64,000 nucleotides of DNA from Siphonodentalium dalli. Taxonomy: Eukaryota; Mollusca; Scaphopoda; Gadilida; Siphonodentaliidae. The notes under the pieces are model-generated. The model saw nothing but the letters and a program-made list of their open reading frames with translations, was not told where the DNA came from and did no database searches. Every line of letters begins with the position of its first letter. The first letter of the stretch is position 1. Location: the NCBI GenBank assembly GCA_032622095.1, contig CP136063.1, forward strand, positions 279,985,426 to 280,049,425, in the 5' to 3' direction. Shown here one piece after another: positions 9,101-62,106 of this stretch. The position numbers and the translations under genes were made by a program.

Positions 9101-12100
9101 CTCTTCTTTGCCGATGGCGTTCTTGGTTCTTCCATCTTTTCATAGAACAACAAATATCCATTCCAGTACCTTAATCTCTCCTCCGGGTATGTGTTAGCTA
9201 CAAATACAATTTACATGTGATGGGTCACCTGGTAAAGCCTGTAAATAGTATGTCTGACATTTGCAGAATGAGGTCCACAGAGGGTGAATTTAGTCATGCT
9301 GTCCTGCATAGCAGGTGAGCATCACGAAATTCACGTTCTGTGACATCATTCTGTTTAGGCCTCATCTTCTTGGAAGTATTTATAATCTCAAATTAACATG
9401 GTTTTCAGTTACTTTTTCCCTTCTGTTCAGTTTCTATATCCTCTAATTTGCAGAAATTAAAATGCTTGATCGAGGTGACTAATGGGTGAAAATCAACTGG
9501 GGAACTTCAATCTGATCCTAGGTCTACCATGGCAGTTCAGATCTAAGCAGAATGAGGTTCCTAGAGGGTGCATTTGGTGATGCTAGCCTGGATAGCGTTA
9601 CTGAAATCACCCTCTCAGGACCTCATTCTGAAAATGCCAGACACTCTGTTTTCTGGCTTGCACCAGGCATGCAAACTTGTGTATTTTTCTAATATATACC
9701 CCGTCTTATTTAAATGTCACCCAGATTTGCAACACTTGCCTGGATTTAAGATTAAGGGTGGTTTGCGAAAACAAATTCCGATAATCAGGTTAAATAATTC
9801 ACGAGAGGCGAGAGAATCGGTAAGAAACGAGTGCGCATTACCCAAATGTCTCTCGCCTCGAGTGAATTATTGAACGTAATTCTCGGACCTAATTGATTAC
9901 TCTATTTATTACACTTCTGTATCAATTTGGTTCGCCAAATATGATTAAAACACACATAATTAATGCATGAAAGTCCCGATGTGGAGAAAGATCAATCGAA
10001 AATTCAGTCTAGATCAGTAAGCTAATCCCAATTCATCTGTAAGAATCATTCATAGTAAATTCACAAAATTCACCAACTCCTCATTTCTATTTATATAAAG
10101 CACATTTCACAGAATTCATCTGACAGAATCATTCATAGTAAAGTCACAAGATGCACCAACTCCTCATTTCTCTTTATATAAAGCACATTTCACACAATTC
10201 ATGTGACAGAATCATTCATAGTAAAGTCACAAGATGCACCAACTCCTCATTTCTATTTATATAAAGCACATTTCACACAATTCATGTGACAGAATCATTC
10301 ATAGTAAAGTCACAAGATGCACCAACTCCTCATTTCTATTTATATAAAGCACATTTCACACAATTCATGTGACAGAATCATTCATAGTAAAGTCACAAGA
10401 TGCACCAACTCCTCATTTCTATCTATATAAAGCACATTTCACACAACCATTGTTTTCTATAGAGCAATTAATGGATATTGCATGTAATTATCAACATTGT
10501 TTAATAAAGTTTTATGGTGAGTGCTCATTTAGAAACAGAGATTAGATAGAATTTATGGATAAAGTTTTGATGTCTTCATGACTAACAGACAATATCTACA
10601 CAACTTTGTTACAAATCTGTGGATTTGAAATTATTCTTAACCCTTTCATGATGGGAGCTGCACTTGTGCAACATTATGATCCTGTGCCAGTGCATTCTCT
10701 TAAATATGCGAGTCTCCCATAGAGAGCCTCACGTATATAAAAGAATGCACAGGCTTACAAGGTCAAGGTAAATATTGTCAGGCCAATGCATTCTCTTATA
10801 TATGTGAGGCTCCTATGGGAGACTCAAATATATAAGAGAATACATTGGCACAGGGTTTTTTCGCAAAATTTCAGGAAGCTCCAGTCATGAAAGGGTTAAA
10901 GGGTAAATGTGATGGACATCATATGGTACATTGCATATTTAGTAAATCTAATATCTGTCTCCCTAATCACGTTGAAAAAAAATATTTCCTGGGAAATATA
11001 CCATTTTGTTTATCTGCTCTAAGAGAGAGCCAAGTCTTAAGTGGATATAGCTCATTCGAGCATACGTAATTTGGAAGTAGCTATAAGATAGGTTTATGAA
11101 TACACGGAATATTGATATACCGGCTTCATATACTCTGAAAAATACTTGCCATGGTCAAAGCCATTATCCAGCTGTTTTCAAATTTTCGCACAGAAGTGAA
11201 ACAAACGCTGTTTATTTCTACCATATCAGGAATGGACTAACACGGAACGCTCTTTTCTGTTCCATGCTGAGCACATGGCTGTTGTTTGGGACACAAACAT
11301 TGTGTTAATAGTTTTATTTTTTATGACTTCAATGGGTCTTTCTGGGACATATAATGAACATAGAAAGGTAGTTCAAGTACTCATCAACCTATTTCAATAC
11401 CGGGAAAAATTCAAAAGCGAATATTATTAGGTGTAATTTGGAGTGCAAAAGGCCTTGTGGACTTAATTACATTGTGTACAAAATCAGGACATCACCAAAT
11501 ACCAGGAGATATCAAAGCCTGAGTTTAGTATGCCTGTCATTTGCAGAATGAGGTCCCCAGATAAGCTAGCATCACTAAATTCACCCTCTGGGGACCTCAT
11601 TCTGCTTAGGCCTCATCTTCTCTGGAAAGTTTCTTTATTAACAAATTTCAATAGAAACTTCTTCACATAGTTTCTATTTCTTTTTTAGTTTAGTTTCTCA
11701 AAATTGGCAGAATCGAGGTTCCCAATGGGTGTACATCACAATATTCACCAGTTGGGAACTTCAATCTGAGGCTATGTCTCCCATAGCAGATGAGGCCATG
11801 CAGAATGAGGTCCTCAGAGGTTGAATTTGGTGATGCAAGCCTGCTGTGTGGGATAGCGTCACTAAATGCACCCTCTGGGGACCTCATTCTGCAAATGACA
11901 GGCACCATATTCTCAAGCCTGGTAGATATGAGGCATTGTTTGGAACTCACATGTGTTTTGACTTTCATAAACCTTGGCTTTGTATAAGCCACCAAAGCAC
12001 TCCGCCTCCAATGTAGTGTCATTCATTTCAAACTCTTCAACAACCGTGTCATTGAATTTAAACCATTTCCCTTTGTTTGAATTTGTCAGCACTGTACCTC

Positions 12101-15100
12101 TGCAATGAAATAGCACTTATATCATTCTAAAAATATATATAAGAACAGACAATTAAAAATACTATGTTCTCAGACATGTTCCTAATCATCCAAACGGTCC
12201 TCTACGAATTTTCAATTGCAAAACATCTTTCATCCATCCTCAGTTAAAAATTAGAGTTTCTGTTGAAGATACCTTACTCGTATTTAAATTCGCGCAGTAC
12301 TATTTTTCGCACACCCATCGGTGCGCGAATTTAAAACTGAGCGAAAAATAGTATGACTGCCAAGTTTAATCTAAACCACAGTCCATATGGGAAATACAAG
12401 AGGGCTATGTTGCTGAGTTTACATATAATATGAACGGCCATATAGACAATTACGCCTTTTCATGTATGCAGGTATTTACATTCGGCCAACAGCTATCAAG
12501 ATCATTGCTCGCAATGGCAAGCGACAAATCATGGTAACATAGACATTGTTGAAATGCTTGTATAATAAATACTAATATTCCAGGTCGCCACAGAATTATG
12601 ATGTATGTAGTTACCAGTTTATTGTCAGCATGATGTAAATCCACCGCGATGGGTGTTTAATATACTATCTTCAGCAATGACTAAGAACCGAAACTGTCAT
12701 CAGCTCTAAGATATATGAAAATATCACAGAAGTATTACGAAAATACTTTTGTCAGTTTTGAATTCGCGCAACTAGGTGCGCGAATTTAAAGTGCGCGAAT
12801 TCAAAACTGAGCAAAAAATAGTACTGCGCGAATTTAAATACAAGTAAGGTAAACTGGCTTTACTGAACAAGAAATTGCATAGACTGAAAATTATAGGATT
12901 TTAATCCATAAAATGATTATAATCAATTTCTAGAATTCCTTAAAAAAAATATACAACAAGAATTGCATCTGAGATGCGGGGTCGAGCTGCGGTAGATAGT
13001 CCAAACATGGGCTTGAACTAATCTATTGGGATTTGTGGTAACTCTGGAGTATAGCGTATTTGGCAGAGTTTAGAAACACCTCTCAAGATGTTCAGTTTTG
13101 AACCATTTCAAAATTGTGAAAAATTATAGCTACCAAACAATACATTTCAAGCAAAATTGGATAAGATAATTTTTTTCAAATATACACAGATACAATCATA
13201 ACACAGAAACAAAAGGACAAATAATTACACATTTCTGCAGTATATTGAGGAGATTGCTTAGTCCAACAAGACTGTCTTCCTGTCATCCCCTTTGAGGATG
13301 AGGTTCAGGGACTATTTTTTTTAATAAGTCCAATGCAACATTTTCAATGTCAGGTAGGGCGTTGGGGGCAGTCGCGGCATCCTTTATGTTGGGGGCAGTC
13401 ACGGCATCCTTTATGTTGGGGGCAGTCGCGGCATCCTTTATGTTAGGGGCAATCGCGGCATCCTTTTTGTTGGGGGCAGTCACGGCATCCTTTATGTTGG
13501 GGGCAGTCGCGGCATCCTTTATGTTGGAGGCAGTCACAGCATCCTTTATGTTGGGGGCAGTCACGCATCCTTTATGTTGGGGGCAGTCACGGCATCCTTT
13601 ATGTTGGGGGCAGTCACGGCATCCTTTATGTTGGGGGCAGTCGCGGCATCCTTTATGTTGGGGGCAGTCACGGCATCCTTTATGTTGGGGGCAGTCACGG
13701 CATCCTTTATGTTGGGGCAGTCGCGGCATCCTTTATGTTGGGGGCAGTCACGGCATCCTTTATGTTGGGGGCAGTCACGGCATCCTTTATGTTGGGGCAG
13801 TCGCGGCATCCTTTATGTTGGGGCAGTCGCGGCATCCTTTATGTTGGGGGCAGTCACGGCATCCTTTATGTTGGGGCAGTCGCGGCATCCTTTATGTTGG
13901 GGGCAGTCACGCATCCTTTATATTGGGGGCAGTCACGGCATCCTTTATGTTGGGGGCAGTCGCGGCATCCTTTATGTTGGGGGCAGTCGCGGCATCCTTT
14001 ATGTTGGGGGCAGTCGCGGCATCCTTTATGTTGGGGGCAGTCGCAGCATCCTTTGTTGGGGGCAGTCACGGCATCCTTTATGTTGGGGGCAGTCGCGGCA
14101 TCCTTTATGTTGCGGGCAGTCACGGCATCCTTTATGTTGGGGGCAGTCGCGGCATCCTTTATGTTGGGGGCAGTCGCGGCATCCTTTATGTTGGGGGCAG
14201 TCGCGACATCCTTTATGTTAGGGGCAGTCGCGGCATCCTTTATGTTAGGGGCAGTCGCGGCATCGTTTATGTTGGCACTTGACATTATCAGAATACACAC
14301 TTATGATTTCCGCTATACATTTCTAAGTGAGTGTCTGCTTTGGTGCGATGTCACATTGTCTTCTAATCTGTTCCATAGGGTTGGACCATCAAAATTAGGT
14401 CCTGTCTTATTCAAAGCAAATCCATAAATGACGAATTGACCTATCTTAGCCAACAAAGTTGACAACGGAATGTCGGTTAGCCAATGAATAGCGAACACGT
14501 CCAAACAAACTGATTGAACTGAGCGTGAAAGCAAGCGTGTCGAATTATCGCCAGTGATTTCTGACTTGTGTAAACAGCGTGGGCGTATATTTAAAGGGGT
14601 AAAGCCTTTTCAAGCAAAAAATAAATTCGTATTATTTCGCGAGTCGTCCGTCAATTATATTATTTGTAGACAAATAAAACCAATGACATTCTCGGAATCA
14701 AGGATGTTTATTCATGTTTCAGGACGGACGAGTGACTTGTAAATCTTTACCACAGATTTTTTTATATACCAATATGTTAAAAAAAACAAAGCTTAAAACA
14801 AGCCATCTGCATTTCACAAACTCCTAAAAAATTTATAGATCTCAAGATATTTCAAAGCTACAACGCACCTTCGATCTTTTATATATGAGTAGTAGTGGCC
14901 GGCGTTGGCTTGGCCACTGTGGACGACCACTCCGACCAGCTCATAGTTTATCTGTTTACTCTGATGCTGGAGGCTCATTGCTAACGTCTGCTTACTAAAG
15001 CTGTCATTAAGATTTATCTCCCCTGAATCGCTGTCGCTGTTTGAGCTGTTCGTACTCTCGGCTTCCCTCCGACTCATTCCCTCAGCAGTATATGGCTCCA

Positions 15101-18100
15101 TGTCTAATATCCATGGAAACTGAATGAGAGGTTCCAAAATATTATGAATCCATGTTTATTATGTATGGAAACTAACACTGTAGCTCAACTTGGATAGGGG
15201 ATAGTGTTACATTCAGTCAATGGGGCAATAAGGAATGCAGAAAGTTTAAATACCAGATGTCCATCCGAAGAGTCATATGAAGTTTGGGATCAATTGGATG
15301 AAAAATATTGGATATAGGGTGTGCTGAAGTATTTAGTCTTGCAAAGAGTAAATCTAAGATGGCTGGCGGCAGCCATGTTTTTCATCGAAAATAGTTCAAA
15401 TTCGATAGCTCCCATCTGGAAGAGATCCTAAACATGCCTGTAAATTTTCAAAAACATTTCTCCAATAAATGCGGGTTGCAGGGTATGCTGATGGATTCAA
15501 AATTTGAAATCCAAGATGGCTGCACAGAAATTATAAAAGAAGTTATATTATTATTGCAGCTCCACATCAAAGATTCATAATGCTTACCTTGAAATGATCA
15601 TCAAATTTTAGAGCTCTGTTAGCCTCCCAATCATAACCAAACCTCTTCAGCTGAATGCAAAGCAAGGATGGTAGGCTCTTAACGCACAACCGCTTTATCG
15701 TGTTCCTCTGAAATAATAAGAATGTGAGCAATCAATACTAGATGAAGATGAGCAATCATAAAGGAGTTTAGTTTAAAATATTTTATTGCTCTTAAATATA
15801 TATAGCAACAAGATTGGGGACAAGTTCTTGGGGCTCCTATCTAAACACAAATGTAACATAAAAATGATGAGAAACAAAAGTAACAAGAGCAAACACAATA
15901 ATTGATTGAATTAATTTACAAAGTAAAAGAAATAAAATTTACAAAGTAAAAAAAATTAAAAAAACGAAAAAGAGCTAACAAAATAAAAATAAAAGGTCAG
16001 CTGACCACAGTGTCCCCCGAAAACGTGGCAAGTCGATGCCGCTTTGTTAAAGAAATTTTTTTAAATGTTGAAAAAGGGTTAATAACTCCGTAAAAAAATA
16101 ATTTTTCGGTCGTCTGTATACATGTTGCACATCTCCAATATGTGGGTAACAATACTCTGAAGTTTCGAATATCTACAATCAAAACTGTAGGAGGAGTTGA
16201 TTACACCATGAAGGTACCCTCATACAGAAAATTTAAAAAGTCGAAAAGGGTTAATAACTCTGTCAAAAAATAATTTTTCCGTCATCTATATACATTTTGC
16301 ACATCTTCAATATATGGGCAACAATATTCTGAAGTTTCAAATCTCTGGGATGAAATGATTACACCATGAAGGTACTCAAAAGTGTGACGGACGGACGAAT
16401 GGACGGACGTACCAACAAATGGGTAGATATGTGGCTTCGACCTATGTGGCTAGAAATGGTAATGTGGCTTTAGTTTTTATGTGGCTTCTCAAGTAGCCAT
16501 AAAATTTTAAGTGGCTATCAAGTAGTAGATAGTGATAAAACTCCAGATTATGGATTCATAACATGTTGGAATTATAGCAGAAGAAGCTGATTAAAACTCA
16601 AAAACTTGCTCACAGCAACTGGGACAGTGGAATAGGAGAAACTGACAGGTCCGTGATTGGGTGGCTAGCCACATAAATGTCTTGTCAGTGTCCGACATCT
16701 CCTTTTGACGGGTCATGGATGTCTAAATGGATGGACTTTTTTTTCTCCAAATTTTGAGTGACTACAAAATTAAATAAGCTGATTAGGCCAAATAGATCAT
16801 TTTAGAACGTCCATCTGAAAGCTGTTACGTGGCTAGCCACGCAACGGAAGTTATGCACATAAATATCCATTTTACACAATCTTAGCCACATGAGTAGTCA
16901 TTAGTAAACACGGACGGTGCAACGGACGGACGGACCCTGTTTCTATAGTCCCCCGAAAATAAATTTTTCGGGGGACTAAAAAAGAGCAAACAAAATAATT
17001 GATTGAATTAATTTACAAAGTAAAAGAAATAAAATGACTAAACTGGTTAGTGGAGCACCTAGATAGATAAAGGAGTAATCCACTGTTTGGTAAAGTTTAT
17101 TCAGGTTTATCATTGTTTCAGCAACTAGGCCATAACATGATGTTAGTTTTACGAGTGGAGGAAAAACCAAACAGAGGGTAAATTTCACAGGAAATCAATC
17201 CAGTACATGTATAAAACACCAACCCCTGAAAAGCAACTGACTAACTTAACCCTTCCATAACTGGAGCTTTCTGAAATTTTCCGAAAACCTTTGCCAAGGC
17301 ATTCTCTCATATATGCGAGTCTCCTGTAGGGAAGAGAATACATTGGCCTAACAATATTAACCTCGGCCTTGTAAGCCAAAGTGATCCACAGATGTTGACT
17401 CATGGTAGGACTGTAATTAGATTTCTTACCATGGTAATTGTAATACAATATATATCATAAAAAATGTCAAATTACATGAATCTTATGTAGTGACTGAGAG
17501 GATACAAAATTGGTTGGGAAGTGCGATTGTTAGACCATTAGAACAAACAGAAGATCTTGTCTAGGGTCTGCAAATCTTAAGTTTTAGATCACTGATGGAG
17601 CTATGCTCATTTTGTGGGACCAAATCAATAGTTCATTACAACACCAATCCTGGTCAAAGATTTTTAATACGATCGAATAAATGCGGCAGTTTCGAAGCGA
17701 ATTGAACCTCAAACGGTTCGCAGGGCCCTAATCTTGTCAGTTTGTTAATAACAATGTGGCTGTATCATCACCTATCCCTGAATCAGTGTCCCAGGCACTT
17801 TGATTCAAGGTAATAATGAGAGGTTCGTCAAAAGTATTGATGCATTAATGGGAATATAAAACTAAGCTTTATAGAATGAACCAACCTTTTCGCCGCACTT
17901 TTCACAAAAATATGCATTATCTCCTTCTAACAATTCTCCTTTCACAAACTGGTCAAGGGAGTCCTGTAGAGTTGCATTTTTAACAGTAACATTCAATGCA
18001 TAAAAGGCCTCCTCTCGCTCATATCTGAAACAAGTCATAGGAAAAGATTTAATTTTCGCAGTAGCATAATCTACAGATGTGCAGCTGGTCACTAGATCTG

Positions 18101-21100
18101 GGAATAAGTCCGCTATAGACAGGCATATGAGCGGGGCTTGGACGTAAACCTGTATCTGGCCCTACCGATATCACTATCTGGTATACGTCCAAGGAAACTG
18201 GGACTAAATCAATGTAGTCTGTATTTTAGAGCAATTGTTCATGGCAGAAAACAACACTCTCACTGAGGAATATCGATAATGAATATAGGAACAATTTTGT
18301 TCTATTGTGCCATGTTTTTCTCTGTAATAATGATTTCACAGACTTCGGATGATTTTCACTGCAAACGTCTTGCAGCACTTTGAACAAGCCATGTTAATTC
18401 ATTTTAATCATGAAACAGATCAACATATGAAGAGTACATATTTACCTGTGAGGACAATGAAGAGTACGTATTTACCTGTGAGGACAATCTTTGCAAATTT
18501 TTTGGTCAGAAAATATTCCCTGAAATTTTTTCTTGAACATCTCTTCCTTACCAATTTTCTGTAATTATCAAGGAAAGAATTGTTAATATTGCTATAATTC
18601 TGCATAAAATAATCTGTCTTCTTGAATCGTTCATTTGATTGGTGTACATAAATATTACATGCTTAGAGTGAAGTGAACCAACTTAATATTGCTACTAAAG
18701 TATTTTCATCTGAATTGCCAGTGTCATTCTTTTACTTAACCCTTTCAGTGCAAGTCCGATTTTAGTATCAACCCATATTTCCTTGATCATTTTTTCAAAT
18801 TTATTGATTATAATAATGTGATACATTGATGGAAAGAGCTCTAAGAGAGCTCTTTCCATCAATGTATCACATTATTATAATCAATAAATTTGAAAAATGT
18901 TCAAGGAAATATGGGTTGATACAAAAATCAGACTTGGCACTGAAAGGGTTAAGAAGTGACTTGAGATCGATTGGGGTCAGCAGAGTAATGAAACAAAGCG
19001 TGTGAATCCCTTACAAACTCTGTTTAATTACTCAGTCAAAACCAATGATATCTTCAAGTCATTCCTTTTTATCGTATACCAGTACATTTTATCATATACC
19101 AGTACATTTTAACATATACCAGTACATTTTATCGTATACCAGTACATTTTATCGTATACCAGTACATTTTATCATTTACCAGTACATTTTATCGTATACC
19201 AGTACATTTTATCGTATACCAGTACATTTTATCATATACCAGTACATTTTATCGTATACCAGTACATTTTATCGTATACCAGTACATTTTATCATATACC
19301 AGTACATTTTATCAGATACCAGTACATTTTATCCTATACCAGTACATTTTATCATATACCAGTACATTTTATCATATACCAGTACATTTTATCCTATACC
19401 AGTACATTTTAATCATATACCAGTACATTTTATCATATACCAGTACATTTTATCCTATACCAGTACATTTTATCATATACCAGTACATTTTATCATATAC
19501 CAGTACATTTTATCATATACCAGTACATTTTAGTAGAACATTAATAACATGAACATTTTATCGTATACCAGTACATTTTATCATATACCAGTACATTTTA
19601 TCATATACCAGTACATTTTATCATATACCAGTACATTTTATCATATACCAGTACATTTTATCACACACCAGTACATTTGATCATATACCAGTACATTTTA
19701 TCATATACCAGTACATTTTATCGTATACCAGTACATTTTATCGTATATTTTATCGTATACCAGTACATTTTATCGTATACCAGTACATTTTATCATATAC
19801 CAGTACATTTTATCATATACCAGTACATTTTATCGTATACCAGTACATTTTATCGTATACCAGTACATTTTATCATATACCAGTACATTTTATCATATAC
19901 CAGTACATTTTATCATATACCAGTACATTTTATCGTATACCAGTACATTTTATCGTATACCAGTACATTTTATCGTATACCAGTACATTTTATCGTATAC
20001 CAGTACATTTTATCATATACCAGTACATTTTATCATATACCAGTACATTTTATCATATACCAGTACATTTTATCACACACCAGTACATTTTATCATATAC
20101 CAGTACATTTTATCATATACCAGTACATTTTATCATATACCAGTACATTTTATCATATACCAGTACATTTTATCATATACCAGTACATTTTATCATATAC
20201 CAGTACATTTTATCATATACCAGTACATTTTAATCATATACCAGTACATTTTATCATATACCAGTACATTTTATCATATACCAGTACATTTTATCATATA
20301 CCAGTACATTTTATCATATACCAGTACATTTTATCATATACCAGTACATTTTAGTAGAACATTAATAACATGAACAACTTTTCAAAACCACCAAAACAAT
20401 TGTAAGTAACATATTGTTAAAATTCCAACGCAATCTACCAATAACAACATGCAGTGAGCGATGGCATAGGATCGGCTTGAAATGATATAGGTTGTACTTT
20501 GTTTTTTATGAAGTGGAGGCTGCAGCTATTAGTTGATGAACCTCGGAAACATTCGTGTAAACCGAATGGCAATTTGTGCTGATCATGATGGGGGTTAATT
20601 GTGTGAATGTAGAGGGTGTGTGATTATATAAAAAATGATAATGTATTGAGTCTCATTAGCGGGCTCATTTCCGTTTGTTTATTAGTTTTCCAGCAAGTGT
20701 AGTGGCGGAATAATAAAAATATAAGGCCAAACAAATTAATGTTCAGATTCTCAGAGATCTGCCCCCTCATAATATATGCACCTCCCCAGTGATTTTTATA
20801 ACCCATTGAAAATAAAAATTATAATTATAATTCATCCTGCCACTTGACAATGGACGAAATACTGACCATAGATTTAGCTAGACATATTTCAACTTGTTTT
20901 TGATATTTTTGTTATTTGTTATTTCTGTTTGGTTTGTTTAATCTGTATGTCTTTAGATTGCTGCAATAAAATTGCATTGACTCTTAATGAGAAGTAATTT
21001 TTCATGTCCAAAAATTTGTTATTAGATAATTGGGGAATAAATATATAAAAACTTGCCTGATGGGAAATTGTTGTCTTATAAAGTGGTATAAAAACATTGC

Positions 21101-24100
21101 TGCCAGGTAATTTTGAAGGTAAAAATAAATATAAAAACCTGCCTGGCTGCTCATTTTGAAAACAAATGTATGAGAAACACATAATCAACTTTGTGTGGCC
21201 TAACTTGGAAGTAGTGAAATTAGCACATAATATGTCATTAAAAAAATTACAAAATATGCTTGAACTAATAATTTAATAAGTGAAAATTAGATACCTTGAG
21301 GTATTCATCAACCTGATCAACGAGAGCTTGGAAGAAGTCGAAGGCATCCTGCTGTTCTCGTACATTAATCTCCTGACCCCACAGTTTGAACACTTTCCAG
21401 AACTTCTCTGGTTCATGGTATTGTAGCTTACTGTCCATTAGATGCCCAAACACTTGTTGTATTTGATGGAAGACACTGAAATGTTGAAGAGTTTATCTGA
21501 GATCATTTTTATTTGTGTTGATCTATTACTTCTTGATTCCATGATTTAACCAGACCATGAAATCAAAGAGCTAATTGACACTACATTAAATGAGTGAAAT
21601 AGTAGTGATATTATATTAGTTCATTATATCTGATCGTTTACAACATTTAGTAAAATGAGTGTAATAAAATTAATGGATTGCAAATATACCACAATGACTA
21701 GTCACTTGTGTACTCAATATTTGGCTAATAATTTCCCTGAATGCAGGTTCCACTACTCTATTCATGTTACCTGCACTTGTGTGTAAAGCCCGTAGCTATA
21801 AAAAACATTAATTGAATAATACCCTTTTGGTGCCCTACTACTAGCTAACTCAAACCTGGATTAACGCTTCCATGACTGGAGCTTCCTGAAATTTTGCGAA
21901 AACACATAAGAGAATACACTGTCCTAACAATATTTACCTTTCAGGCATTTTAAGCCAGTGCATTCTCTTATATATGCAAGGCTCCCAATGGCAGACTCAC
22001 ATATATAAGAGAATGCACTGGCACAGGATCTTTAAAATGCTGCACCAGCCCAGCTCCCGTCATGAAAGGGTTAATTAAACATTGTGTTTTCAGACATTTT
22101 CAGGTCAAGCCTACAATTTCATGTTCCCAAGAATATTTCCCTTTTATGAAGATAAACAAAAATTGATACTGATAAAATCAAATACATTCACAGAATTACC
22201 CCTTGTTTCACTGTACCATGGTTTCCTAAACTAGCTAATTAACTGGGATCTGCAAAAACAGAACTTGAGTATGAATAATGATAGTTAACCTTTCATCATC
22301 AGTTGATTCATCATCGACACCGAGGATGGATTCGGGGATATTCGGTGCCATATATAGCTGCTGTATCACAGAGTTCATGTAACATGTAGCACCGGCGTTC
22401 TTCAGCCCGACAAACCCAGAGGATCCACGACCATCAACTGGAGGTAGATACTGTAAACAAAAACAATGTTCAATTCAGTAAACAAAAACAAAAACAATGT
22501 AAACAAAAATAATGTTCAATTCAGAGGATCCACGACCATCAACTGGAGGTAGATACTGTAAACAAAAACAATGTTCAATTCAGAGGATCCACGACCATCA
22601 ACTGGAGGTAGATACTGTAAACAAAAACAATGTTCAATTCAGAGGATCCACGACCATCAACTGGAGGTAGATACTGTAAACAAAAACAATGTTCAATTCA
22701 GAGGATCCACGACCATCAACTGGAGGTAGATACTGTAAACAAAAACAATGTTCAATTCAGTGAAGATCATACAAAACTATCATCCTATGGATGTTAAGGA
22801 CATATGTGACCCGCCATATCAAATCCAGTCGGAAGTCGGGATTTTTTTACCCTGTGCCAATGCATTCTCTTATATATGCGAGTCGACCATAGGTCGCCTC
22901 GCATATATAAGAGAATGCATTGGCCTAACAATTTTTTACAATTTTAATAATTTGTTCTTGTATTCTTTAACAATTTTATAATTTCACCCATACAGAGCCC
23001 CAGACAAACATGAGCAGACAACACTCTTCTATATGCATCTATATATGTGTGGGGCTCCCTGCAGGGTAATGGATGTTTTTTATTTTATGTCCTAAAAATT
23101 GTAAGAAACATTTATTTAAAAAACATGATAAAAAATTGTTAGGCCAATGCATTCTCTTATATATGCGAGGCGACCTATGGTCGACTCGCATATATAAGAG
23201 AATGCATTGGCACAGGGTAAAAAAATCCCGACTTCCAACTGGATTTGATATGGCGGGTCACATATGAGCAGATGATGAAAATGATAAAAAACAAGTGAAG
23301 AAGTATTAATATTCACTGGTGGGAAAGGTTTAAATATGTTTAATATGCCTTTAAAGACATACTGCATGACTATTTCAGTGAATGATTAGTTTTTATCAAA
23401 ACACTATCTTCATTGGAAGAATTGTACAAAATTCCAACCTCATTGACTGTACCATTTCAGAAAATAACATTTTCAATAGAAAATACATATTCCCTAATAA
23501 GATACTTACACACTGAACTACATGGTATATTCATCTTTATTCACAAGAAAGGATTCTATGAGATCCGTTTAAAATTTATTATTTTGGTACGAAATAGCTT
23601 AAGTACCTTTTGAATCATTATTATTCTGACGTAGCAGGTCAAAGGTCATTTGTCCACTCGTTATGCATATAAGCAAGTGGACCCACAGTAATCGGCCTCT
23701 TTTTATCCTCTTACAAGATTCGAGGGGTGTGACCGAGCAGCGGGGAGGGAAAATCCCAATTTGGGAGGGACATGGGAGTTCAGTGTGTAAGTATCTTATT
23801 AGGGAATATGTATTTTCTATTGAAAATGTTATATTCCCGTCAAAGATACGTTACACACTGAACTACATGGTAGAATCAACTCATAGGAGGAGGCTGCGAG
23901 GAATGAGATACTATTGTATTTTAGTTGAGAATAATTCTTTTGAACCTGTTGAGTTTTTTAGCAACAAATGGATCAAAAGGTACTGATTTGCAGATTTGAT
24001 TGATGCTACCAGGTAGAGTGGAGAAAGTGGGAGAATAAGCCCAATGGCTGAAACTCTGCACCTCCCCCCCCCCCCCCCCCTTGGTTCTGAAGTCAGACAA

Positions 24101-33100: not shown

Positions 33101-36100
33101 TAGCGTTAGTTTTTACTTCCCTTCGAATCTTGTCACAAGAGAAAAAGAGGCCGATTACTGTGGGTCCACTTGCTTATATACATAACGAGTGGACAAATGA
33201 CCTTTGACCTGCTACGTCAGAATAATAATGATTCAAAAGGTACTTAAGCTATTTCGTACCAAAATAATAAATTTTAAACGGATCTCATAGAATCCTTTCT
33301 TGTGAATAAAGATGAATATACCATGTAGTTCAGTGTGTAACGTATCTTTGACGGGAATACACAGAGATTGACTTATTCACAAATGTAAATATTTACTATT
33401 TTAATCAGGACGAATTATTGGGTAATAAACATACGGCAATGATTCCACCAACAATATTCACGGTGTGTAATTTGTAACAATGATGCTGTTTTTTATCTAT
33501 TTGGATATGATGAAATTTATGAAAATACCTAATTTTGGCATGATTATTTGCTATTCGGTTCCGAGCACCACAGCAGAGCGTACATGTAATACTGCAACAG
33601 AGTGTAAATTAATACATTAACCCTTTACCCAACAAACCGGCCAAAACCGGCCAAATAAAGCTTCAACAGCCTAAAATATTTTCGGTCTGTCTCAATAGAA
33701 CCATACACATATGGATATCATTGGAACCGTCTCCTTGACCACATTGTGATAGTTACAGTTATGCCCTGTGCCAATGCATTCTCTTATATATGCATATATA
33801 AGAGAATGCATTGGCCTAAAAAAAATCTTTTTTTAACACTTTTTAGCATTTTTTCTTACATTCTTTAACAATTTTATAATTTTTAATGTGTTAAGCCAAT
33901 GCATTCTCTTATATATGCGAGGCGACCTATGGTCGACTCGCATATATAAGAGAATGCATTGGCACAGGGCCCTTCTGTTGGGTAAAGGGTTAATAGTACT
34001 GATATCACTTACTTCCCACTCTTTAGCGTCACCGGAGTGAGGCTGGTGATGGTGCATGTCAATCAGCTGCCTTGCGATGAGTATTTGATTGGGTAGGCTG
34101 TTGTTAGCCAATTCAATGAGTAAATCGTACGCTGCGATTCGAGATTCTTGGGAACTGCACCTGTTAGGTAATAATGATGTTAGCAACTTAACAACTCGTA
34201 CATAAAAGTGGCATTTGTTTAAAATTAAAGTGGATTTTTTCGGTGGTGGTTTTTTTAGTTAATGAAAAATTCTGGCATTGGATCAAACTTCACTTTCAGC
34301 TGTCTATGGTGTTAACACACCTAGGTTTATTTGATCAAACAGCAGATTATGCAGTAAATTCTACGATGAAAAGGAAAATAACTCCATCAGAAATGGTCAG
34401 ACTGGTCCCAAAATCGAACTAGACCGGGATTGATTTAACATATAGTTGTTAGACAGATATACAGTAATGTCCTAAGTAATTGACTCCTTAACCACGACTC
34501 CTTAACCATGGGTAACTTTTCAGGATTTAGTCGGAAATATGGCTCGGGGAGAGCTTTCCGATGAATGGCAACAATCCATATTTCCGACCAAGTCCTGAAA
34601 AGTTACCTATAGTTCTGCTGTGGTTAAGGAGTCGATTACTTAGGGCATTACTGTAGCAGATAGACATTAACTGCCAAAATTGCATTGGTTTTGGTCACCG
34701 AATATAATCTTACCTGGGGTTGAAGTCAGAGAGGCTGCAGTCCATAGTTGCTTCAGTAATGCTATCAAGCATGAGTTTAGAAGCCGGAAACAAGAAGTCA
34801 TGAAGCAAATCGTAGATCAGTGATTCACCTAAAACCAGAAGTAAATGAGTAAAATTATTGATCAGTGCTTCACTTGAAAGGTTAAACAAGTATACCGATA
34901 ACAAAAATGAAAGGGTCAATCAACTTGGGCAAGACTTAATATTTTGCTCAGCAATGAATACAATGATAAAGAAGAAGGAGAGTAAAAAAGTTACAGTAAA
35001 GGGCTTGTCCTGTGTCGATGAAATTATATTCATTTAAAATATTTTACCAATAAATGTGATCAGGTCTAAATCCAGAAAGAATTTTTACTCAAGTTTTATT
35101 ATTCTGAACAATTTGGGGTTGGAAAACTTGAATACATCTTTAAACCTTCAATTTGTGCAGATGGATTTAAATTTGAAATCCAATATGGCTGCTGGCGGCC
35201 ATGTGTTTTAACAAATTTCGGAAATAATCGATGGCTCCCATCTAGAGGTCAGCCCGAAGATCCATATGAATTTTGGTGATGATCGGATGAGGCATGTGGC
35301 CTGCAGGATGTGCCCAAGGATTTGGTTATGCAAACAGTAAAATCCAAGGAGGCTGCTGACAGCGATGTTTTTCTACAAATTTCGGAACTAATCGATGGCT
35401 CCCATCTAGAGGTCACTCTGAAGATCGATATAAAGTTTGGTGATGATCGGACAAGGGATGTGGTCTGCAGGGTGTGCTAAATTAGTCATACAAAGAGTAA
35501 AATTCAAGATGGCTGCTGGTGGCCATGTTTTTCATTGAAAAACATTCAAATTAGATAGCTCCCAGTTACAGTTGATCCTAAACATGTCTGTAAATGTTCA
35601 AAACATTTCTGAAAAAAATGCAGGCTGCAGGGTGTCCCGATGGATTCAAATTTGAAATCCAAGATGTCTGCTGGCAGCCATGTTTTTAACGAATTTGGGA
35701 AAAAATCATTGGCTCCCATCTAAAGGTGGCCCCGAAGATACATATGAAGTTTCGGTATGATTGGATTAGGGATGTGGCCTGTAGGGTGTGCCAAATTAAT
35801 TTGTTGACAGATGCCACCATACCCGGATGAAGGGACGACAAATGACAACCCATGGCAATAGCTCGTCTAGTTGATTTAAAAAGGGCTGCAGTCAGGCAGG
35901 TATTTATTATGTAAATGTTAAAGGCCATTGATACTAGTGAATTGTACAGTTGGCTAGCATCACCCTCTGGGGACCTCATTCTGCATGGCCTCAACTGCTA
36001 TGGGAGACATAAACTCAGATTGAAGTTCCCGAATGGTGAATATTGTGTGTACACCCATTGGGAACCTTGATTATGCAATGTGTTGTTTGCCAATTTGGGG

Positions 36101-39100
36101 ATATAGAGAAACTAAACTAAATAAAAGGTCGCAGACCACATGTCCCCCGACTCGAGTGGTAAACTTCATGATTGGATTTGTTTGTAGGATACTATTTGCA
36201 ACAATGTTATACAGTATATAGATGTTGCAAACCACCGCAAAATTTCTTGGACAAAACAACCCGATGAACAAATGCATGCAAACACGAAAAAAATGATATT
36301 TTTGTATTAGCTATATAGATGTTGCAAATCACCAACATGTTAGGAACAATATCCCAGAGTTTCAAATCTCTACATTTAAAACTGTAGGAGGAGTTGATTA
36401 CACCATGAAGGTACCCAATCTCATCCAAAAGGCAAAAATGTTCAAAATTTTCTAAGTCGAAAACCCCCCAAAAATATGGAAAAAATGATATTTTTGATTA
36501 GCTATATAGATGTTGCAAATCACCAACATGTTAGGAACAATATCCCAGAGTTTCAAATCTCTACATTTAAAACTGTAGGAGGAGTTGATTACACCATGAA
36601 GGTACCCAATCTCATCCAAAAGGCAAAAATGTTCCAAATTTTCTAAGTCGAAAACCCCCCCAAAAATATGGAAAAAATTATATTTTTGATTAGCTTTATA
36701 GATGTTGCAAATCACCAACATGTTAGGAACAATATCCCAGAGTTTCAAATCTCTACGTTTAAAACTGTAGGAGGAGTTGATTACACCATGAAGGTACCCA
36801 ATCTCGGACGCACGGACACACGGACGCACGGACGCACGGACGCACGGACGCACGGACGCACGGACGAGGGTCATTTCTATAGTCCTCCGACGGAAACGTC
36901 GGGGGACAAAAATAAATAGAATCTATGTGAAGAAGTTTCTATAGAAATTTGATAATAAAGAAACTTTCCTGAGGCTTTGATCTGATAAAAATTTGGAGAC
37001 CTGCTATATACAAACCATATTCTTCCTTGTTGACGCCCTCACAGGTAAGCAGGGTCCTAACGAGCTTGAGATGACCTGCTATATACAAACCATATTCTTC
37101 CTTGTTGACGCCCTCACAGGTAAGCAGGGTCCTAACGAGCTTGAGATGACCTGCTATATACAAACCATATTCTTCCTTGTTGACGCCCTCACAGGTAAGC
37201 AGGGTCCTAACGAGCTTGAGATGACCTGCTATATACAAACCATATTCTTCCTTGTTGACGCCCTCACAGGTAAGCAGGGTCCTAACGAGCTTGAGATGAC
37301 CTGCTATATACAAACCATATTCTTCCTTGTTGATGCCCTCACAGGTAAGCAGGGTCCTAACGAGCTTGAGATGACCTGCTATATACAAACCATATTCTTC
37401 CTTGTTGACGCCCTCACAGGTAAGCAGGGTCCTAACGAGCTTGAGATGACCTGCTAACAGATAGTTATCTGTATCCTGAAGTTCGGGATTCTTAGAAGGC
37501 ACAAAGTTACACAGCCACGCGACCTCATCCTCTAACATAGAAGCAAGGTCAACATGTAAACTCGCCTGGTCTGATGCTGGAATATAGCGAAAGTATCAAT
37601 AAATTAATAACAATTCGCAGGCATGCTCATCAATTAAAATGGCCAATAACCTTCAAGACTTATTTAACTCTTTCTATACCAAAGCGTCATTGATGAGTAG
37701 TTATAGAAAATATTCAGAGAATAATTTCAACAAACGACCATATAATTTGTTGAATTTATTATCTAAACATTACCCTCAATAAATAGGTCTCCTTCTGTAC
37801 TTTTAATTATCTGTCGTCAGCTTATATTACATGTACATCCCTGCAAATCAATAATAGACCATTCCAATGTACACTTTTTAACTGACTGGGAGAATCCATT
37901 TAGTATAGAAAGGCTTAAATTATTCATCACTTGAAAGATAGAACTTCAAAATATATCTACATACAATACAACAAAACTACAGAATAAAATGGAACACAAT
38001 GATATTTAATAATCAACACCTTCAGGTACGTGTGTGTTTTTTTTAGCATAATGATCAACTATTTTTAAATTTCTGCGTAGAAATGATTTGAACACTTCTA
38101 TTCATTATCATATTGTAGGAAAATAAGTAATAATCCATGCTCTATGTTGTCCAAGCCTTGAAATAGGGTGTCTGTCATTTGCAGAATGAGGTCCCCAGAG
38201 GGTTAATTTAGTGATGCTACCCCACATAGCGGGCTAGCATCACCAAATTCACCCTCTGGGGACCTCATTCTGCAAATGAGAGATACCCTATTTCAAGGGT
38301 TGATGTTGTCGCTAGAGAATTAACCAGTTCCATAAACATTTATGAGGCAGTAATTCAATTACATTGGTAAAACATTCCAAAACATAATAAATCTATCTAA
38401 CAAAGTTGATTTTGAAGATTTTGGGCCCCATTCACCTTTTTGTACTAAATACAAAGTAGTTCCCTTTGGAAATGTTCAGATTTTGACCTTATTATCTGAA
38501 CATTTCCCACAATCAATATAAATGCTTATGCTCTGTTTTTCTGTCTGGTGTCTGCTTTTATTACCTGAACACCTCTCAAAATGAATAATAGACTGTTCCA
38601 ATGTATACTGTTTATAACTGGGTTGGAGAATCCATTTAGTATAGAAAGGTTTAAGCAGAATCATAAAAATATACAATATCTGTTACTCACCTGATAGATT
38701 TTCGAGCAGTCGACATCTCAAGTCAAAATACTGTGAGCACTGGCCTAATATTCTGAAATAAAAATCATGTGACTAAATATAGGAGATATGAATCACAGTT
38801 CGATATTCGTTAAATTTGATATTTGAGAGACTGAGTGAATATCTAATACGGATTCACCTAAAATATCTATTAAAGGTACTCAATTCAATCAGACGCTCCT
38901 AAATTACTATTTCTTTGGCTTCGGGGTAGATAATATTTGATTCCAGTCGAGGAACCCACCCATCAAAGCTCAGAGTGATCAGATATCGATGTTTGAAATT
39001 TGCTGTTTCTATTGTTTGTGGACCAATCTTTTTGAGGACCACGTGCTAAAAACGGACAAATTGCGGTTGTAAAATGGATAACTCTAAAATCAAGTGGTTA

Positions 39101-57100: not shown

Positions 57101-60100
57101 AGTCGTAAGTCGGGATTTTTTTACCCTGTGCCAATGCATTCTCTTATATATGCGAGTCGACCATAGGTCGCCTCGCATATTTAAGAGAATGCATTGGCCT
57201 AACAATTTTTTACAATTTTAATAATTTTTTCTTGTATTCTTTAACAATTTTATAATTTCACCCATACAGAGCCCCAGACAAACATGAGCAGACGACACTC
57301 TTCTATATGCTTCTATATATGTGTGGGGCTCCCTGCAGGGTAATGGATGTTTTTTATTTTATGTCCTAAAAATTTTAAGAAACATTTATTTTAAAAAAAT
57401 GATAAAAAATTGTTAGGCCAATGCATTCTCTTATATATGCGAGGCGACCTATGGTCGACTCGCATATATAAGAGAATGTATTGGCACAGGGTAAAAAATC
57501 CTGGAAACACTTAAATGTAAATTGCATGTGATTTGATTCAGCGGTGACATTGTAAAGAAATAAATACCTCAAGGTTGTACAGCACCCTGAAGACGGACAT
57601 GTCTGGACCGATGATATCAAACAGGCCCCTGAGAATGTCTTCAGGCATAGGTCGCGGACTCGGTACCGTCACATGAGTCTGTTTCTTAGGACTAGCTCGC
57701 GGACTTGTTCTCGGACTGAGATCATCAGATGACAAGGAAGACTTGAAACCCTAGTAAAGAAGTAAGAGGAAGGATATTTACAAAAATGAATAATAAGGTA
57801 ATGCAAAGCCTCGAGATTCAATTTCAATTCAGTAGTTGTTATCCAGTTCCTTTTAAAATACTTTTATCTGATTCATTTTCTTTCCTTTGAAAAGACAATG
57901 AAAGAAACGGATAATTGCAGAGTCAAAGAGCTATAAACAAATTTTGTTATATAATTGAAAGTTCCAAAATGTATAATTTCTCTAAGTAAATTTTCCATTT
58001 TACATAATTTTCAAAGAGTAAAATCTAAAAATTCTCTCACAGAACTGGTTCTATCGATTTGATTCCAAATTATGTTAAGACCAAAATGCATACTAAAATA
58101 CAGTAGTCCTGTAACCTAACATTATCTATTAGTGATATGCATACTAAAATACAGTAGTCCTGTAACCTAACACTATAATACATTAGTCCTGTAACCTAAC
58201 ACAATCTATTTTGTTACTTTAAAGATGTCTTCAAGATTTCAGGCTAATTATATGAAAGGGATATTTATAGATAAGAATACATTTAAGCAATCATACCTTC
58301 TGAGTAATGGAATCCATGGCGTCAGAAACATTAGGATCTGTTGGAATCAGCATCAGCAGCCGGCGAACTCGAGATGTTATTCTTAAAGTAGAAGATTATG
58401 TAAACAATTCAACTCCACAGAAAGTAACGATGTCTGGCATTCAAATTGCAACCTTACGTTCAGACATGTCATTTGAGGTAAATTTTGATTACAATTATTT
58501 TGTGAGCACCAAACTAAAAAGTCTGACACTATGTTATCAGTTTATGGTTGGAAAAATTAAGAAGAATTTTTGCACAAAAAAGTTATCAAATGATCTTCTA
58601 TTGTGGCTGGAAGGTAATGATAGGATAGTAATATTTGTGGCTGGAAGGTAATGATAGGATAGTAATATTTGTGGCTGGAAGGTAATGATAGGATATTAAT
58701 ATTTGTGGCTGGAAGGTAATGATAGGATAGTAATATTTGTGGCTGGAAGGTAATGATAGGATAGTAATATTTGTGGCTGGAAGGTAATGATAGGATAGTA
58801 ATATTTGTGACTGGAAGGTAATGATAGGATAGTGATATTTGGTATTGGCAGTCCTTAGATCGTTGTGTTAAACCTAGATTGTAATCAGTCTGTGTAAACA
58901 CATGCTTAGAGTCATACTGAGTCTATCGTAGTCTCATCGAAATGTCATTTCCTGGAAGTGTGCAGGCTTCCCCCAAATTACGTCATATTGTGTTACTTTA
59001 ATAGCATCAATTGGATACGTTTATCTTTATGCTACTAATATTGACTTCTGATTGGTGCTACATACATGGAATTTGGAAATAGATGTCTTTGACAAGTAAT
59101 CTGACCCCACTATTTATATAGGCCCCAAAGGTGAATTTAGTGATGCTTCCCCACACAGCGGGCTAGTATCGCTAAATTCACCATCTGGAGACCTCATTAT
59201 ACAATGCTTCATCTGCTATGGGAGACCTAAACAAAGGTTTCAGTTCAAAGATGGTGATGTGCACCCATTGGGCACCTCAATTATGCATTGTGTCATCTGC
59301 CAATTTGGGAACATAGAGAAACTAAACTAAAAAAAATTGTTAATTTCCAAAGAAGATGAGATCCACAGAGAGTGAATTTAGTGATGCTAGCCTGCTGTGT
59401 GGGGTAGCATCACTAAATTCACCCTCTGGGGACCTCATTCTGCAAATATCCAGCAACATATTTTGAGGCCTCCTGATTGTGAGTCATTACATTAGAACTT
59501 ACCTGTCTTCTCAGACTATACTAATAAATTAGAACTTACCTGTCTTCTTCAAGCTCAGACAGATGGTATAGCATCTCAAACACTTGACCACCTATTGACA
59601 TGACAACCCCTGGTAACATCTTCTCCTGAAAAAATATCAATGTCATTACAATGCCTGCAGCAATTTGTTTCAATTTTTCACAAAACATTGGCAGGCTCGG
59701 ATAATAGCCTTGGCTAATAATAGCCCACAAATTATTTTTTTCTTGGCATTTTCCTCGGCTCAGCCGATAGCCGGCACTAATTAACAGGGCTACAATATTT
59801 CAAATTTCTTACCTGCTCTAAGTCATAAACTTGTTTAGAAGGTGTTACTGGTGTCTGAAAAGATAAAACAAAATCAGAAAATAATATATAATTAAATGGA
59901 TAAATCGTTTATTGAAACAATATTTATTTCTTCCAAAACATAATTTTAAAGTCCAACATTAGGTCAGTATGTGAATAGTTAAATGGAGGAAGACCATTTG
60001 GTAAAATGCCTTAAATGCTCATATAGAGCATTCTCCTCAGAATAGTAAATGTACATAGTACAATGGTAGTACGTGGAAGACAAGATAAATAGTTAATCTG

Positions 60101-62106
60101 GGTATACATGAGAAGATAATGATGGTAGTAAGTGGAAGACAAGATAAATAGATAATCTGGATATTTATGAGAAGATAATGAAGGTTGTTTATATAATTTT
60201 GAGATGCTTTAAGTCACAGAACATTCTGACAAGTTCAGGTGCCACAAAAAAGATTTATGTATCCATTATGCATTGAGAATTATATGATATAATACATATG
60301 TCAAAGGTACATTCAAGAAATAACTCTTGTTTCAATTAAGTTATTAAGAAAAGATAGAAGACAAATTTGATAATGCATGTTATAGGAAATTTATCTTCAA
60401 AATTTTGGTTATAACTCATAACCTTAATTGAAACAAGAGTTATTTCTTATAATTTAAGCCGTCACTATGAATAGAAGGTAGAAGTAAAATGTCAAAATGA
60501 AGGACACTGCTACAGTCATGGACAAATTTCCAACTTCAGTGCAACAAGTTCAATACATTATGATTTGACAACAAAAACATTGTCTAAAAAAAGATAATTA
60601 TAAAACACTCAATATATGTACAGATATAAAAATTAGGGTGACCAAAGATGGCATCAGAATTTTCAATGCAGCAAATGACAACCCCAGTTGCTGATTTATA
60701 GAACATATCTGCTTATAATCATTTACTGACAGCTGTAGAAAGATCCATTGAAGTCCTACTCAGCGACTGGCCATGGGACCACACAGCTCTCCAGATAACA
60801 GGTATCTACGCATGCCTGCAAATAGTGTGTCATTTGCAGAATGAGGGCCCCAGAGGGTGAATTTAGTGATGCTATCATGGGCTAGCATCACCAAATTCAC
60901 CCTCTGGGAACCTCATTCTGCTTAGACCTCAACTGCTATGGGAGACCTAGGATCAGGTTGAAGTTCCCCAGTTGAAGTTGGTGATGTTCAACCATTAGTC
61001 ACTTCGATTATGCATTTTATCTTCTGAAAATAAGAGGAAGGGAAAACTGCTAAAAACAATGTTAGTTTGAGGCAAAAGATACTTCCCAGAAGATAAGGCC
61101 TAAGCAGAATGAGGTCCCCAGAGGGTGAATTTGTGAATTTGGTGATGCTAGCCTGCTGTGAGTAATAGCATCACTAAATTCACCCTCTGGAGACCTCATT
61201 ATGTAAATGACAAACACACTATATTCAGGCTTGTATCTACACTATGAAACATTTGAGATGATGCAATTTATGATATTTGATACTAACACATCTTTGGAGA
61301 TGGACCACTGACTTGTAGTAATCTTTGATACTTATATCTTTGGAGATGGACCACTGACTCGTAGTAATCTTTGATACTTATATCTTTGGAGATGGACCAC
61401 TGACTCGTAGTAACCTTTGATACTTACATCTTTGGAGATGGACCACTGACTCGTAGTAACCTTTGACAGGAGTCGCACCTGTATTGTCTGATTGTCTTCA
61501 AAATCTAGTTGATGCAGCAATTTTTGGTCCTTAGTTGTACCAAGCTGAAAAACAAAATATTTTATACTTTTCAAAACTATAACATGATCATAACTAGAGT
61601 TTGCTCCCTGCTTTATTATGCATTTGACATCCATTGGAACTTGTCACATTATCATGACAAGACACTGTTCGTGTCAGGCTCAAACTTGCCGAATTGGAGC
61701 TCCGTGGTCCAGTGGTTAGTGTGTTGAACTTGTCTTTGCGGTCAACACAGCGAGACAAGTTCGCAGCCGGTCGGTGGTCTATTGCCAGTTTTCACACAAC
61801 AGAGGCTTGGCCCCTTTGAGCTATGTGCAATTGTAGGATTTTACACTGTTTGAATCTAATATGACCCTTGAGCAAGGTCACTCATACTGTGTCTGCTTTG
61901 CACCAGCCATGCTTTAAAAGGGTACCTGATTATGAGCATTGAAAGATCTTGTCAGAATGATAGTCACATAGTATCCTCTTGGCTCTACCTCCCCCTGTCC
62001 CTGGGGAGCAGTAGATGGTCACTGAGAGTTTAGGCTCATCAGGGTAATAATTGTAATAATTTGGGCCTCATGGGATAAGGCACTTTACAAATGCTATATA
62101 TTATTA

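Follow-up and report, generated by a model that had tools for sequence, protein, structure and literature searches.

Coding minisatellites (VNTRs), such as the mucin repeats, consist of in-frame tandem units that vary in copy number and lie inside one exon. Amphioxus mirages are minisatellite tandem duplications of exon/intron boundaries, described for the globin genes BflGb6 and BflGb9, Adh, TnC and PGBD5 (PMC3087553, PMC3902484). Their units measure 10-160 bp and many of them carry a splice signal, both 5´ and 3´ boundaries are affected, and two BflGb6 haplotypes have 6 and 3 units (PMC3087553, PMC3902484). Somatic instability, at the Adh3 locus, is a further trait of mirages. RT-PCR results suggest regular splicing (PMC3087553), and a second report states that the Adh and troponin C mirages generate no aberrant mRNAs (PMC3902484). 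Duplications of this kind also bear on intron gain: in the potato RdRp gene, a tandem duplication across an exon/intron boundary became an intron (PMC4974935), and the proto-splice-site model of intron gain by Rogers is cited in the mirage literature (PMC3087553).

Here, we describe a tandem array of 75-bp units at one exon-intron junction of a USP24 gene. We put the probability at roughly 0.7 that it is a young minisatellite that arose from this junction, that the exon-proximal donor is used, and that the exon therefore measures 186 nt with copies 2-6 being intronic. Judged from the genome sequence, the array would be one case of arrays across splice junctions in several genes, a kind that also includes the amphioxus mirages.

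The 75-bp array and its exon

The window, the whole stretch of 64,000 nucleotides that was analysed, contains the gene on its minus strand, and our gene model of 49 junctions places 25 exons there from frame and splice signals (Table 1). Tandem Repeats Finder reported a period of 75, 6.1 copies and a 99% match at 36998-37456. The six-fold, in-frame and near-identical repeat described in a sequence-only reading is thus present: a single base differs among the six units (in unit 2, changing Val to Ile), and the frame is open across all six. Every unit combines 66 bases of exon with the first 9 bases of intron, such that the tandem repeat spans an exon-intron boundary (with exon limits predicted from frame, splice signals and comparison with relatives) and includes a splice signal, the donor ATG/GTTTGT, six times in all. 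The longer motif GAATATG/GTTTGT recurs six times at a spacing of exactly 75 nt, in phase 1 each time, the phase that the next exon requires at its start (34828). This bears out the earlier claim that each copy has its own donor fitting that exon. The 9-bp sequence TAGCAGGTC opens every unit and stands once more past the last one, giving seven occurrences per six units and flanking the array at both ends.

Table 1. Positions of the array, its exon and further splice-junction arrays (window positions unless a contig is named; a slash marks the junction)
Feature	Position	Strand	Remarks
Six 75-bp units	37456-37382, 37381-37307, 37306-37232, 37231-37157, 37156-37082, 37081-37007	minus	
Last TAGCAGGTC after the six units	37006-36998	minus	
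Six phase-1 donors ATG/GTTTGT	37015..37390	minus	First intron bases 37390, 37315, 37240, 37165, 37090, 37015
Array-bearing exon e11, if first donor used	37391..37576	minus	Acceptor TATATTCCAG/CATCAG; 186 nt; exon 13 of the earlier numbering
Following exon e12	34714..34828	minus	Start TTTTAG/GT GAA TCA at 34828, phase matches donors; exon 14 of the earlier numbering
Exons with UCH (PF00443) catalytic domain, same gene	14868..22450	minus	
e1 donor array	62292..62455	minus	73-bp unit x2.2 across donor AAACTG/GTTAGT
e2 array, uncertain member	61290..61466	minus	46-bp unit x3.8; junction spanned only with donor AAAGAT/GTAAGT, not with CAG/GTGCGA (61478)
e4 donor duplication	59491..59548	minus	37 bp; donor GACAG/GTAAGT; first intron bases 59539, 59502
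e14 acceptor array (UCH Cys-box exon)	22417..22760	minus	Four copies upstream, spaced 59 bp; the copy belonging to the exon itself follows after 105 bp
e16 donor array	18427..18488	minus	30-bp unit x2.1 across donor CACAG/GTAAAT
L019, USP exon end and donor	C4:260011200-260014200		82-bp array; 8 donors; at least 8 units, extending past the fetched stretch
L021, another USP gene	C5:249312000-249315000		40 copies of one acceptor, 28-65 bp apart
L041, kinesin motif exon	C4:241342900-241345900		Donor three times; period 69 bp, with one 71-bp step
L043, splice-site array			31 bp
L044, kinesin motif exon	C1:88001900-88004900		Donor three times; 60 bp

The label exon 13 belongs to the earlier reading's own numbering; the array-bearing exon is the eleventh that we could place within the window (e11). 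The gene is taken to be USP24: exons for the UCH catalytic domain (PF00443) lie downstream of e11, and 13 window stretches match, in order, an approximate version of the human USP24 C-terminal sequence. According to the sequence-only reading, vertebrate USP24 has one such unit. As a piece of USP24 protein, however, the proposed 25-residue unit does not stand in full, since its residues LYI are read from the first intron bases (GTTTGTATATA); with one unit, YG joins the next exon directly. The 100-aa sequence joined in this way is collinear with a single stretch of human USP9X (PDB 7yxx), and this match, though weak (E = 0.041), argues that LYI is intron-derived. The same one-unit sequence had no Pfam match up to E = 1. 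The FERM_f0, Ank and other Pfam matches of the six-copy exon are absent for it, and we attribute them to the fortuitous resemblance that a repeated helix can show. A PDB search with the six-copy exon as query gave no match, nor did Rfam at gathering scores.

A second locus and further splice-junction arrays

In the assembly that we compared (2.2 Gb, 9 contigs), a second copy of the gene lies 1.25 Mb away in inverted orientation, with an array of 11 units at C3:281277257-281278090. Seven of the 11 are the same as the window's commonest unit and four have one change each; the V-to-I change occurs once per locus. All 11 are open, making 17 of 17 over both loci, a count that is little informative, with only five variant units and a stop arising from just 11 of the 225 possible single changes. 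The array thus has 6 units at one locus and 11 at the other, the two being alleles or recent paralogs within one assembly, and the copy-number instability that the sequence-only reading had proposed is borne out. We conclude that the array is very probably real, with a length that varies between alleles or recent paralogs. Among intronic arrays compared between the window and the second locus, that of 20 bp has 64.2 and 11.1 units, and that of 34 bp has 7.1 in both. The 83-bp intronic array at window positions 10029-10446 has 5.0 units, and its counterpart has 38.0.

The two loci differ at 574 of 21418 aligned non-coding sites (2.7%) and at 24 of 2672 aligned coding sites (0.9%), and all 16 chosen exon anchors stay open in the second locus, where a single residue differs. 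For probes at 279.70 and 280.15 Mb, mirror copies in inverted orientation lie at 281.52 and 281.17 Mb, respectively. Together with USP24 this gives three points over ~450 kb in inverted order, and the mirror copies at the two further points suggest a duplicated block of ~450 kb or more; probes at 279.40 and 280.40 Mb were overwhelmed by repeat families and uninformative, with just 40 scored out of 18340 and 13530 candidates, respectively. The stretches C3:279.70-280.15 Mb and 281.16-281.52 Mb form a large, inverted, near-identical block, either a haplotig or a segmental duplication. Further local pairs, compared by family score and almost alike in it, would fit unpurged haplotigs. A kinesin trio with nearly equal scores on C7 (at 207.98, 209.49 and 209.79 Mb) would need more than two haplotypes on that reading.

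Beyond e11, five junctions of the gene carry tandem splice-site copies in one or both loci: the donors of e1, e4, e16 and e21 and the acceptor of e14. There are two e4 donors in the window and four in the second locus, and the 41-bp donor array of e21 is found in the second locus only. At e14, the window has five acceptor copies separated by four steps (59, 59, 59 and 105 bp), whereas in the second locus the unit measures 71 bp and occurs 2.3 times; at e16, the unit of the second locus is 44 bp long and four donors are present. That units at the same junction differ between loci, 30 versus 44 bp at e16 and 59 versus 71 bp at e14, suggests that such duplications recur. A sixth candidate, e2, has two possible donors, CAG/GTGCGA at 7.0 bits and AAAGAT/GTAAGT at 8.56 bits (matrix of 23 donors), both in phase 0. 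Because another donor fits as well, we set this array aside in the donor-array counts.

Similar arrays are found in other genes. We inspected stretches of ~3 kb at 40 loci outside USP24, hand-picked down the ranked lists of UCH (20 of 63) and kinesin (20 of 123) matches, and five of the 40, in other USP and kinesin genes, have a splice-site array. Two UCH pairs in this sample (L011/L016 and L014/L015) may be exons of one gene, and neighbouring exons were incompletely annotated. Separately, locus L055 contains at 2762-2998 a 71-bp array (86% match) whose unit includes an acceptor-like TTGACAG, with no exon tied to the array.

Arrays at splice junctions have to be set against the density of minisatellites in this gene, where TRF arrays take up 17.3% of the stretch in the window and 20.0% of that in the second locus. 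Over the 49 junctions of the window copy, 5 of all 39 arrays span a junction, against 5.27 expected under random placement. For arrays with a period of 25-130 and a match of at least 90, the counts are 5 of 18 against 2.30 expected in the window (p 0.063) and 4 of 14 against 2.51 in the second locus (p 0.20), where nine of the 49 junctions were unplaced, e21 among them, such that its 41-bp donor array was left out. The lowest p, 0.017, came from donors only at a match of at least 95 in the window (4 of 14 against 1.10), one of 18 uncorrected tests. The window counts include e2, whose donor was reset after its array was seen; with its other donor (47 junctions in the window, 36 placed in the second locus), 4 of 18 window arrays span a junction against 2.19 expected (p 0.16). 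An enrichment of arrays at junctions is thus not firm: all arrays together are near chance, and short high-identity arrays reach about twice the expected number without firm significance. Given these counts and the minisatellite density, the 75-bp array needs no special cause.

Choice among the donors

In the most probable course of events, 66 exon and 9 intron bases would have lain between two 9-bp direct repeats (TAGCAGGTC), and slippage or unequal exchange between these repeats could have produced tandem copies with a donor in each. Copy number kept changing afterwards, as the arrays of 6 and 11 units document. The exon-proximal donor would normally be used, the exon remaining 186 nt, the protein staying as in relatives and copies 2-6 forming the start of the intron.

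This reading is supported by the collinear alignment of the one-unit protein with USP9X, by the regular splicing suggested for amphioxus mirages (PMC3087553) and by reading frame. When the second GT donor was read at nine donor arrays (e2 set aside), eight gave a phase change or a stop, and the 75-bp array alone stayed open. These eight other readable arrays, four in USP24 and four in other genes, give a frameshift or a stop without exception, from which we infer that the exon-proximal donor is probably used there, and probably at the 75-bp array as well. In the kinesin motif exon of L041, copies 2 and 3 have acquired stops, and in copies 2 and 3 of the e2 array AT stands where copy 1 has the GT of the donor-like GTAAGT; both changes are expected if those copies are intron. 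The distinct donor-array periods are 73, 37, 75, 30, 44, 41, 82, 69, 60 and 31. Multiples of three make up 4 of these 10 (75, 30, 69 and 60), or 4 of 11 with the 46 of e2, near the chance share of about one third, and so there is no sign that units were selected for frame.

A competing explanation is that splicing draws on several donors among the six, such that USP24 isoforms would arise whose lengths upstream of the catalytic domain vary in steps of 25 residues. In this model USP24 would gain 0-5 (or 0-10) 25-residue helix-loop units, the range being set by allele copy number, and 60-nt in-phase cassettes might also be spliced, skipping their neighbours. The donors are all in phase, no unit interrupts the frame at either locus (6 of 6 and 11 of 11 open), and, among the nine donor arrays, only that of 75 bp stays open at the second donor. 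Every unit also has an acceptor-like CAG/GTC (TATATAGCAG/GTC) in the donor's phase, which makes in-phase cassette splicing conceivable; this site scores 6.3, the median over 25 of the gene's acceptors being 6.4 (small matrix). An AlphaFold model built from the six-copy exon as a single sequence predicts, for every unit, a helix of 20 residues and a loop of 5, such that extra copies need not wreck a helical region; at a mean pLDDT of 59.6 the model is too weak to lean on and gives no sign either way on the folding of extra units. Against the use of several donors are the frameshift or stop at the second donor of all eight other readable arrays and the lack of an excess of units divisible by three, and the published mirages are said not to disturb splicing (PMC3087553, PMC3902484). 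The six isoforms of the sequence-only reading therefore keep their in-phase donors and open frame, but the use of multiple donors is not favoured; we regard it as possible though rather unlikely.

The donors of the 75-bp array are identical, a point against first-donor use, and position alone must then decide the choice. Of two identical donors, the intron-proximal one often wins, which would favour the longest form. If the last donor were always used, the length of USP24 would track genomic copy number, with 125 additional residues here and 250 in the second locus. The frame is open up to the last donor in both loci; at the other donor arrays, however, last-donor use would disrupt the protein, and we consider this outcome improbable. 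Two further points count against the first-donor reading, the openness of all 17 units, of little weight as noted, and the weakness of the e11 donor (4.74 bits, third lowest of 24 in a small matrix built from the gene's own donors). Least probable, in our view very unlikely, is an assembly artefact with fewer genomic copies in reality. Tandem arrays can be misassembled and the second locus may represent a haplotig left unpurged, but arrays of unequal length, each with variants of its own, stand at two places in the assembly, which makes an artefact unlikely, and some other arrays also differ between the loci while others agree. Use of the exon-proximal donor of a young minisatellite thus remains our preferred reading.

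Relation to known systems

Arrays that copy a splice site raise the question of how the splicing machinery picks among identical sites. This genome offers natural cases with a built-in readout, since at the other readable donor arrays only use of the exon-proximal site leaves the protein intact, a constraint that the 75-bp array lacks. Splice-junction arrays are also raw material for testing intron gain by tandem duplication. If the host is not a lancelet, our data suggest that mirages are not a lancelet oddity; we make no claim of a first report outside lancelets.

As in the amphioxus mirages, units cross a splice junction, carry a splice signal and occur in several genes and at both 5´ and 3´ boundaries. 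Copy number varies between haplotypes in amphioxus and, here, between two loci that are alleles or paralogs. In contrast to the amphioxus cases, the host is probably another organism, and the 75-bp unit is a multiple of three and open, such that isoforms are possible. As in models of intron gain by tandem duplication, the duplication crosses an exon/intron boundary and each unit has an acceptor-like site; the duplication in potato RdRp became an intron (PMC4974935), whereas a new intron spliced here would be hypothetical. In-frame units of variable number are common to coding VNTRs and the 75-bp array, but here every unit has a splice donor, and coding is only putative. The array thus most likely belongs to a known kind of junction-spanning minisatellite with variable length, and it is unusual because it keeps phase and an open frame; its extra copies would leave with the intron.
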